Source: Elusimicrobiota bacterium (GTDB taxonomy: Bacteria; Elusimicrobiota; Endomicrobiia; Endomicrobiales; Endomicrobiaceae). From it: a DNA stretch of 43,729 nt. Made by a program: the position numbers and the translations under genes. Of the stretch, positions 1 to 43,729 are shown piece by piece (position 1 is the stretch's first letter; each line of letters opens with the position of its first letter). The stretch spans positions 1-43,729 of the forward strand of contig JAITSO010000020.1 in the NCBI GenBank assembly GCA_031287735.1. Direction: 5' to 3'. The notes beneath the pieces were generated by a model, which was not told where the DNA came from, ran no database searches, and was given only the letters and a program-made list of their open reading frames with translations.

Positions 1-231
1 TCTTAAAACCCCCGCCGCTCTTGCCGAGCGCCACCCCCTTTAAAAAAGGTGGAATTAAAACCAACCCCGACCACACCAAAAAGGTGGAATTAAAGCACCA
101 GGCCAAGCACTGTTATCTATTCCACCAAAACGCTGGAATTAATTAGACTTCCTTTAGTGTTGGCAGCAACCCGCCACATGCTGCTAAACGTTGAAATTTC
201 AATAGTCATCTTTAAGAAAGTTTTTTGCCGT
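1..231 (+). repeat. Direct repeat copy 1 (left arm of element 1)
   Basis: Positions 1-231 and 453-729 are direct copies. Both contain the same stem-loop (CGCTC, loop TTGCC, GAGCG), the same GGTGGAATTAA modules, and the same tail containing CGCCACATGCTGCTAAACG and GTCATCTTTAAGAAAG. This copy begins at the window edge and lacks about 45 bases that copy 2 has gained by repeating the CCACCAAAACGCTGGAATTAA-type module. Confidence 0.9.
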
Positions 232-452
232 GCACGCCTTTTGCCTTTAATTCCCCTTTCCCAAAGAGGTAGCCTTTAATTCACCCTTTTTATCCGTGTT
301 GTGCTTTTGCCTTTAATTCCACCTTTTTTAAAGGGGGTGGGCAGCGATAGCTGGCCGGGGGTTTTAACCCCTAAAACCTAAACCCCAAAGACCCAAACCC
401 TAAAATCCACCCAAGCCCCACACAAATTCACTTAAAAAAATAAATCTAGACA

Positions 453-6501: not shown

Positions 6502-6515
6502 CTAAAATAAACTTA

Positions 6516-6611
6516 TTAATTTCCCTATCGATGGCATTACCCACATCAGGTTCAAACGGTCAAAGGAATTCATCCTTATCTCAGCTCTGCTAGTTCGCAA
6601 GGCGCCCGTGT
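6516..6611 (-). promoter_or_regulatory. TPP riboswitch (THI element)
   Basis: The conserved TPP-aptamer cores are present on the minus strand: GGGCGCC at the 5' side, GAGCTGAGA (6579-6587), and ACCTGATGTGGGTAATGCC (6533-6551), followed by the CGATAGGGAA end. The order and spacing match the THI-box family. It stands directly upstream of thiG and controls the thi operon through the terminator at 6464-6501. Confidence 0.95.
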
Positions 6612-6741
6612 TTGTTGTTTTTTGCGTATAAATTATCAATTAATTTGAGCCATGCAAAAATACGTTTTAACTAAAAATTTAATACATGAGCAACTTTAAA
6701 TTCAAAACTGTACATTTTGTTACTTTTGTGTTTCATAGAAT

Positions 6742-20395: not shown

Positions 20396-20445
20396 TTTAA
20401 TTCCCATTTTTCAAAGATGAAGCTTTGCCTTTAATTCCACCTTTT
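20396..20445. repeat. 50-bp direct repeat, copy 1 of block 2
   Basis: It begins TTTAATTCCCATTTTTCAAA, contains the small inverted repeat CAAAG, ATGAAG, CTTTG, and ends TTTAATTCCACCTTTT. The copy at 20704-20753 differs at about one base in the shared part. Confidence 0.85.
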
Positions 20446-20703
20446 CAAAGGGTCAGCACTTTTAAAAGTGCGGGGTTTTAAAACCTAAAATTTTTCAGGT
20501 CAAATCTATCTGTCAAGAAACCCGGCAAAATAATGAGAGCCGCTAAAGCTATAGGTTATAAAACCCCCGGCCGCCGTTGGCGACCACCCCCTTTAAAAAA
20601 GTGGGAATAACTGCAAAAGCACCGACCCCCTGCAAGTAAAGGTGGAATTAAAGCGGAGCCCCTTTTTATAGCTATTCGCACTTTATTAAAGAAAGCCGTG
20701 GAC

Positions 20704-20753
20704 TTTAATTCCCATTTTTCAAAGATGAAGCTTTGTCTTTAATTCCACCTTTT
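20704..20753. repeat. 50-bp direct repeat, copy 2 of block 2
   Basis: Near-identical to 20396-20445, 308 bases further on in the same orientation. Here it is followed by TTTAAAGTGGGAATAACT, a module also seen at 20593-20610. Confidence 0.85.
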
Positions 20754-20981
20754 TTAAAGTGGGAATAACTACAAAAACGACTAGACCCTTTAAAAAAGAG
20801 GAAATTAAAACTAGACCTAATATTTTTAGTAAAAACGCCGACGTTTTTCATCGGAAAATCAAAACCCTTCGCCGCTATTGTAGACAACTTATTAGAACCA
20901 AATTCTCTACGCGTGTGATAGGGTTTCGTATCATTGCTACTAATCCGTTCAAATACCTGCGGCCGGCGCGAGTCTTTTTAT

Positions 20982-43380: not shown

Positions 43381-43729
43381 TGTAACAAAGTTTTGTCCAA
43401 TGATGAATTGAAGCCGAGCAGTGTAATCAGTTTTAAAAAGTTTTTAAAGAGGTTTTAAAACCTCCACTTCAAATAGGTGGTAGCAATCCTTTAATTCCCA
43501 CTTTTCCTTTCGGGGGTGATCGACTTTAGCCGTTATTCCACCTTTCCTTTCAGGGTGACGACTTTAGCTGTTATTCCCCCTTTTTTAAAGGGGGTGGTCG
43601 CTGAAAGCGACCGGGGGTTTTAAAACCTAAAATTTTAAGTGTAAATAAAAATTTTTACCTAAACGTTAAATCTTTGTCTTTTAAAACCCCCCTGCTAACG
43701 CAGACCCCCTTTAAAAAAGGTGGAATTAA
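43381..43729. repeat. Intergenic repeat block 3, running off the window end
   Basis: After cls comes GAGGTTTTAAAACCTC (43450-43465), then three related modules starting at 43489, 43524 and 43562 (CTTTAATTCCC, CTTTAGCCGTTATTCC, CTTTAGCTGTTATTCC) with a spacing of 35 and 38 bases. A right-end module follows (TTTTTTAAAGGGGGTGG, stem-loop 43596-43612, GGGGGTTTTAAAACC). After about 45 bases a new left end begins at 43678 (TTTTAAAACCCCCC, stem-loop 43692-43703, ACCCCCTTT, A-run, GGTGGAATTAA) and is cut off by the window end. Confidence 0.85.

Follow-up and report, generated by a model that had tools for sequence, protein, structure and literature searches.

The window is the whole 43,729-nucleotide contig (C43) analyzed here, one of 60 contigs in a 1.357-Mb, 99.98% complete Endomicrobiaceae genome (Elusimicrobiota; G000, hereafter the window genome); no second member of this organism's genus was found among the relatives searched. 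Its repeats are built from a natural unit, the arm, which is ∼45–60 bp long in the window genome and reads on one strand AAAACCCCC, hairpin 1, CACCCCC, TTTAAAAAA, one of GGTGG, GTGGG, or GGGGG, and AATTAA, where the portion from CACCCCC to GGTGG constitutes hairpin 2. Arms usually lie head to head across an AT-rich spacer of ∼60–80 bp, as at 311–510 and 43573–43729, with their TTTTAAAACCCCCG ends towards the spacer, and the 38 head-to-head pairs of the window genome have a median hairpin-to-hairpin distance of 80 nt.

Arm 1 (1–58, + strand) comprises TCTTAAAACCCCC, hairpin 1 (16–30; CGCTC at 16–20 and GAGCG at 26–30), CCACCCCCTTTAAAAAAGGTGG, which forms hairpin 2 (31–52), and AATTAA. Arm 2 (311–369, − strand) contains GGTTAAAACCCCC, a hairpin 1 of GGCCAGC-TATC-GCTGCC (CAGC/GCTG at 342–353), and CACCCCCTTTAAAAAAGGTGGAATTAAAG, and it faces arm 3 (453–510, +) head to head across an AT-rich spacer (370–452); the copy at 453–510 is 98% identical to 1–127 over 127 nt. 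A sequence-only reading had listed its repeats under 1–368, a stretch that is not one element. The repeat ends are real, but they belong to two arms, a right-pointing one at 1–58 and a left-pointing one at 311–369, that face each other. An arm relic at 797–810 (−; CGGGGGTTTTAAAA) lacks both an intact hairpin 1 and the CACCCCC tract. In the interior of the window, arm 4 (20431–20483, −) has a hairpin 1 formed by GCACTTTT and AAAAGTGC (20456–20471) and a decayed CACCCCC tract, CTTTTCAAAGGG; a spacer (20484–20555) separates it from arm 5 (20556–20608, +), which carries hairpin 1 GGCCGCCGTTGGCGACC (20569–20585) and CACCCCCTTTAAAAAAGTGGG and scores 72.2 bits with the covariance model (E 1.4e-15). 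Outside this pair lies a decayed copy of hairpin 2, TTAATTCCACCTTTTTTAAAGTGGG (20739–20763, −). Arm 6 (43573–43626, −) has a perfect hairpin 1, GGTCGCT/AGCGACC (GGTCGCTGAAAGCGACC, 43596–43612), and a perfect hairpin 2, CCCCCTTT/AAAGGGGG, with a single-strand DNA fold z of −5.1 and a covariance model score of 74.7 bits. Beyond an AT-rich spacer (43627–43678), arm 7 (43679–43729, +) consists of TTTTAAAACCCCC, hairpin 1 CTGC/GCAG (CTGCTAACGCAG, 43692–43703), and ACCCCCTTTAAAAAAGGTGGAATTAA, and is cut by the contig end. The six stems of arms 1, 2, and 4–7 are thus present where the earlier reading had placed them. Degenerate tandem units of ∼40–75 bp (AAAAAGGTGGAATTAAAGGCAAAC..., in G009 AAAAAGAGTGCGAGTGCGCAACAAATAA...) also occur outside the arms, repeating away from the pair, at 60–160 and 560–640 of the window and at L062 and L209, and a TPP riboswitch is located at 6505–6619 (−; Rfam RF00059, 64.7 bits).

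Element ends shared in both orientations, as first described from the window's letters, occur above chance: GGTGGAATTAA (at most one mismatch) has 15 matches in the window compared to 1.1 expected, and CCACCCCCTTTAAAAAA (at most three mismatches) has 7 compared to 0.37. Genome-wide, CCACCCCCTTTAAAAAAG is found in 118 copies and its reversed pattern in none. Because about half of the arrays of the window genome lie at contig ends (L033–L067), where repeats break the assembly, 118 is a lower bound and the true copy number is higher.

Hairpin 1 occurs in the window genome as 58 alleles that fall into 15 clusters. Among the 15 cluster representatives, own halves pair at a mean of −5.70 kcal/mol, compared to −2.75 kcal/mol for permuted halves (sd 0.41, best −4.37; 0 of 2000 permutations). 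The same comparison of own and swapped halves gave 0/2000 in each of three other genomes when all alleles were used, and 10/2000 for the cluster representatives of G062. Compensated alleles of the window genome include GTGCTT/AAGCAC, GCACTT/AAGTGC, and GCGCTT/AAGCGC, with GCACTT/AAGCAC as a broken intermediate. The direct compensatory change from C-G to T-A that had been proposed between 20569–20585 and 43596–43612 is real and occupies the seventh pair of the stem; the third pair is a C·A mismatch in the former and T-A in the latter.

Comparable behavior is observed among lineages. When 29 distinct arms whose hairpins span 17 nt were aligned across lineages, we counted 46 double-changed cells versus 16.6 after shuffling (0/500) and obtained a covariation score of 0.548 versus 0.135 (0/500); the arms of G009 were covered by alignment A3. 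Sliding the partner by 1–3 columns abolished the covariation signal, with every slid control far lower. The frame CCCG...CACCC is unchanged in all 29 arms, demonstrating that the frame is conserved while the letters of hairpin 1 change with pairing kept. At the base of the hairpin, the G-C foot pair is invariant, and the second pair is mismatched in 17 of the 29 arms. Both sides of hairpin 2 differ between lineages as well, from CCCCC/GGGGG to CCCC/GGGG (G009), CCCTC/GAGGG (G088), and CTCC/GGAG (second arm, G060), so that both hairpins covary across lineages within an invariant frame. The original proposal that covariation reflects a constrained hairpin is therefore supported by both the own-versus-swapped and the cross-lineage tests. 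Stem pairing was upheld by the genome-wide collection of copies, covariance model, and stem statistics that it had suggested, and the contrary outcomes that it had named, uncompensated stem variation or mostly stemless copies, did not appear genome-wide. At L266 and L268 of G089, the loop of hairpin 1 holds a 35–40-nt insert, with the stem ACGCG/CGCGT kept.

The two arms of a pair carried an identical hairpin 1 in none of 68 pairs (38 in the window genome, 10 in G060, 17 in G088, and 3 in G062), and each pair can therefore fold as a four-way junction. Pairs whose hairpins belong to the same broad class numbered 7 in the window genome versus 19 expected from shuffles, with a P of 0.0002 that is optimistic because some of these pairs are copies of others. 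For exact identity alone, neither the window genome nor G060 had fewer cases than the shuffles (P ∼0.3 each); G088 did, and its 17 pairs are recent copies of one master and hence not independent. Two different hairpins fold locally at −10.1 versus −8.3 for cross-pairing, while identical hairpins would cross-pair at −32.2. The single-strand DNA fold computed for the pair at 43573–43718 (−38.6 kcal/mol, z −8.1) has a closing stem made from the outer parts and a central stem of GGGGGTTTTAAAA/TTTTAAAACCCCC, with both copies of hairpin 1 folded locally and protruding at the meeting point of the stems. These models suggest that the constrained object may be a four-way junction with different side hairpins, which would account for pairing and diversity occurring together in the stems.

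Arms are inserted DNA. In seven relatives, one of them the window genome, no gap separates rnhB from yraN, the two genes being adjacent or overlapping; in G009 they are ∼540 bp apart, and the gap holds an arm and other repeats. In G088, near-identical pairs are present at about 20 sampled places, and their spacers are close to one consensus length (27–32 nt in 16 of the 18 dimers measured). The spacer at L327 reaches 72 nt because it contains a complete single arm, GCCCCCTTTTACAAAGGGGGTGTCACGAAGTGACGGGGGATTT, and at L320 another single arm, which begins ATCCCCCTGCGG and ends GGGGGCTT, occupies the other end of the spacer. Both nested insertions sit in A/T runs, where a target-site duplication of 2–3 bp at most is suggested, and the filled L327 and L320 sites have many empty counterparts within G088. 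These two nested copies indicate that a run of A or T can take up a single unit of ∼43–46 bp. Pairs at L310–L327 of G088 lie within longer inverted flanks (ACGAGTTACGCGC...GCGCGTAACTCGT; GGTTTTTGAACGAGT...ACTCGTTCAAAAACC; AGACTTCTTGCATAACT...AGTTATGCAAGAAGTCT); at L316, an 18-bp direct repeat, TTTAATCTGCTCTTCCTA, flanks both sides instead.

To count copies across genomes, we used a covariance model built on the arm (R1). It detects 105 copies in the window genome, 97 in G021 (the termite-gut MAG Endomicrobium sp. Gx485_bin123, in which L076 and L085 are one 4,968-bp contig), 25 in G001, and 20 in G009, a complete Endomicrobiaceae genome in a single contig of 1,588,979 bp that is presumably Endomicrobium proavitum; 44 of the 59 Endomicrobiaceae genomes have zero copies. 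Beyond this family, the model finds ∼110 copies in G060 (a MAG titled Oscillospiraceae whose contigs reach 775 kb), 137 and 53 in two genomes from the family of G060, 114 in G062 (a MAG titled Propionibacteriaceae), and single or few matches in 8 of 147 other genomes of the class of G060. Matches in a Christensenellaceae MAG (L096; L162, L166, G061:C155) were not counted as spread, since the arrays on these two contigs have the same hairpin alleles and spacers as the window genome, and the contigs are probably misbinned Endomicrobiaceae DNA. IMG/VR yielded 13 stretches, most with the same arm design; three of its entries (L278, L279, L282) are chance-like matches without hairpin 2. Outside the window genome, the usual tag is CCCCGTC...CCACCCC, within a frame of CCCC(C)GTC...(G)CCACCCC(C), and stems span 3–9 bp, as in GTCAACACTTCGTGTTGCC, GTCACGCTCCGCGTGCC, and GTCAGCGGCTCCGCCGCTGCC. 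A CGTC, TGTC, or CCTC tag is present in nearly all arms of G021, G060, and G062 and in most arms of G009; it is mostly lost in the window genome, where the starts are GGCC, GCAC, GTGC, and CTGC. A literature search by sequence strings, mostly outside subscription journals, found no earlier description.

We also searched for an enzyme that could move the arms. A Y1 transposase (PF01797) is absent from the window genome, G060, G062, and G063 (an Endomicrobium MAG), and a RAYT/Y1 mover is accordingly rejected for these genomes. The sequence-only reading had suggested a site for a REP-type transposase: the REP/REPIN-like anatomy and the character of inserted DNA stand, but the Y1 enzyme is missing from the window genome and three other copy-rich genomes. 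Since repeats of the dRS3 type serve as targets for phages and insertions, we searched seven genomes for IS110: six gave none (the window genome, G009, G021, G013, G001, and G060), and G062 gave two matches. The tyrosine recombinases found were only two, XerD and XerC-like, and an integron integrase was likewise rejected as the mover. A transposase gene with matching ends, which the earlier reading had suggested looking for, did not turn up: none of the 40 ORFs adjoining arrays in the window genome encodes a transposase, and the Y1, IS110, and array-flanking ORF searches brought out no partner insertion sequence whose ends match. Restriction-modification genes account for 6 of the ∼40 array-flanking proteins of the window genome (L032:1365–2891, L067:1944–4682, L034:1979–2680, L035:118–1092, L039:2488–3268, and L051:1765–3000), an observation possibly relevant to reports that restriction-modification systems act as mobile units in Endomicrobium.

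Taken as a whole, the arms are probably, though by no means certainly, non-autonomous mobile palindromic elements of a REP/REPIN-like kind, closest to the CGTC-tagged REPs, whose mover reads structure. The mobile module would be the ∼43–60 bp arm, made of a C-run bearing a G/CGTC tag, followed by hairpin 1, a CCA tail, and hairpin 2 (C-run, TTT, AAA, G-run). An enzyme supplied in trans may recognize the folded single strand through the tag, the hairpin foot, and the mismatch near the foot. If such an enzyme reads the fold and not the stem letters, stems would be able to drift by compensated changes. Within a pair, the shared arm parts would pair mutually while the two different copies of hairpin 1 fold locally; the result would be a four-way junction rather than one long, perfect palindrome, a likely reason for the kept stem diversity. 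What speaks against this explanation is that no Y1, IS110, or integrase mover was found and that most alleles in the window genome lack the tag. A further-reaching claim, that the arms form a class of mobile DNA shared across phyla and recognized by fold alone, that two different hairpins per pair extrude a four-way junction, and that an enzyme family new to REP-like DNA moves them, strikes us as unlikely.

The covariation could instead arise from selection on RNA, with hairpins in untranslated regions that stabilize, process, or terminate mRNA and copies that spread passively; we give this account low credence. The strand bias of G009, in which the G-rich strand is the sense strand in 19 of 21 arms between codirectional genes (p 2e-4), would fit it, as would the excess of A·C mismatches on the C-rich strand (17, versus 6 G·T), A·C being G·U on the G-rich strand. 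Arm orientation in G009 tracks genes and not chromosome position, on which ground replication-strand orientation was rejected. However, the bias is absent in G060, G088, and G062 and non-significant in G021 (6:2), head-to-head pairs are nearly symmetric, and several of the G009 copies share long flanks and are thus not independent. The arrays also matched no Rfam family. A role at transcript ends, raised in the earlier reading, found no support in gene context: of 22 sites in the window genome, 17 are codirectional, 2 convergent, and 3 divergent, G088 has many divergent ones, and a terminator function was rejected for want of a convergent-gene bias.

A purely mutational origin would need no enzyme, since template switching in hairpins (quasipalindrome correction) can copy a change across the stem and produce a compensated change in one step, and the window genome does contain both compensated stems and broken intermediates such as the one listed above. 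Such correction should nevertheless remove the second-pair mismatch as well, which persists across lineages in the proportion given, and it leaves the invariant frame and the never-shared hairpins of pairs unexplained, so that we consider it distinctly improbable. We hold it very improbable that, instead of being mobile modules, the arms serve as sites of recombination or insertion in the manner of attC or of phage targets such as dRS3. Variable stems in a fixed frame are also typical of attC sites, and two restriction-modification genes of the window genome have arrays on both sides; yet the recombinase and IS110 searches described above speak against such sites, no gene cassettes lie between arms, and single arms are themselves inserted in other copies. 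Searches of plasmid collections returned no similar plasmids, and those of phage records no match or one short partial match.

REP-like repeats are common, and how the CGTC kind moves has been a question since 2013. The family described here offers a strong structural signal, two hairpins that covary in an invariant frame, and its natural filled and empty sites suggest the unit size. Its hosts span several phyla with common gut habitats, and its related genomes are a place to seek the enzyme. That paired arms never share a hairpin also opens to testing the question of whether selection acts on a junction-forming structure rather than on a sequence.

Several known systems share parts of this design. 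The attC sites of integrons act as folded single strands and keep their structure although the letters of the stem vary, as is the case here; unlike them, the arms themselves insert, and no integrase, gene cassettes, or R box motifs were seen. MITEs with a DDE-type mover are likewise short, non-autonomous, inverted, intergenic, and of high copy number, but no partner insertion sequence for the arms turned up in the searches above, and the longer outer inverted flanks in G088 differ between sites. REPINs, described together with RAYT systems (PMC3116915), resemble the arms in that short palindromes stand as inverted pairs around a spacer, outside genes and in high copy number. Stem irregularities matter for recognition by TnpAREP (PMC8266576), comparable to the mismatch near the hairpin foot here. 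In REPINs, however, REP ends are conserved and compensatory changes occur in the spacer hairpin (Bertels and Rainey 2011, PMC3116915), and the arms differ further in having neither GTAG, which is found at the palindrome foot of none of the arms listed, nor a Y1 transposase (window genome, G060, G062, and the Endomicrobium MAG).

CGTC-tagged REPs, which include Neisseria dRS3 and Rickettsia RPE-4/RPE-6, have a terminal unpaired CGTC (or TGTC/CCTC) tag, a short unpaired CCA tail, and a stem of 8–9 bp with complementary A-T at the first and second positions and a loop of 4–5 nt; they occur mostly as head-to-head dimers and have no dedicated transposase (Di Nocera et al. 2013, PMC3733652). The arms of G021, G060, G062, G009, and relatives similarly have CGTC before and CCA after the hairpin; CCA or CACA precedes the second C-run in nearly all arms, and CACCC is present in 29/29 rows of the alignment. 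They too form head-to-head dimers (the 38 pairs of the window genome, and also in G060, G062, and G088, while arms of G009 are mostly single), with spacers often of 20–100 bp, frequent heterodimers, and some dimers inside other palindromes, and the Y1, IS110, and array-flanking ORF searches likewise revealed no dedicated transposase. In contrast to CGTC-tagged REPs, stem sequence and length vary here within one genome (3–9 bp, with loops mostly of 3–5 nt), A-T is kept at no more than one of the first two positions, every arm has a second, outer hairpin (C-run/TTT...AAA/G-run), and the hosts are Elusimicrobiota, Oscillospiraceae, and Propionibacteriaceae. Since the A-T stem feature is lacking and arms of the window genome mostly do without the tag, we do not count the arms as members of that group. 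The best reading of their anatomy is REP/REPIN-like, closest to the CGTC-tagged REPs yet set apart from them as a new variant.
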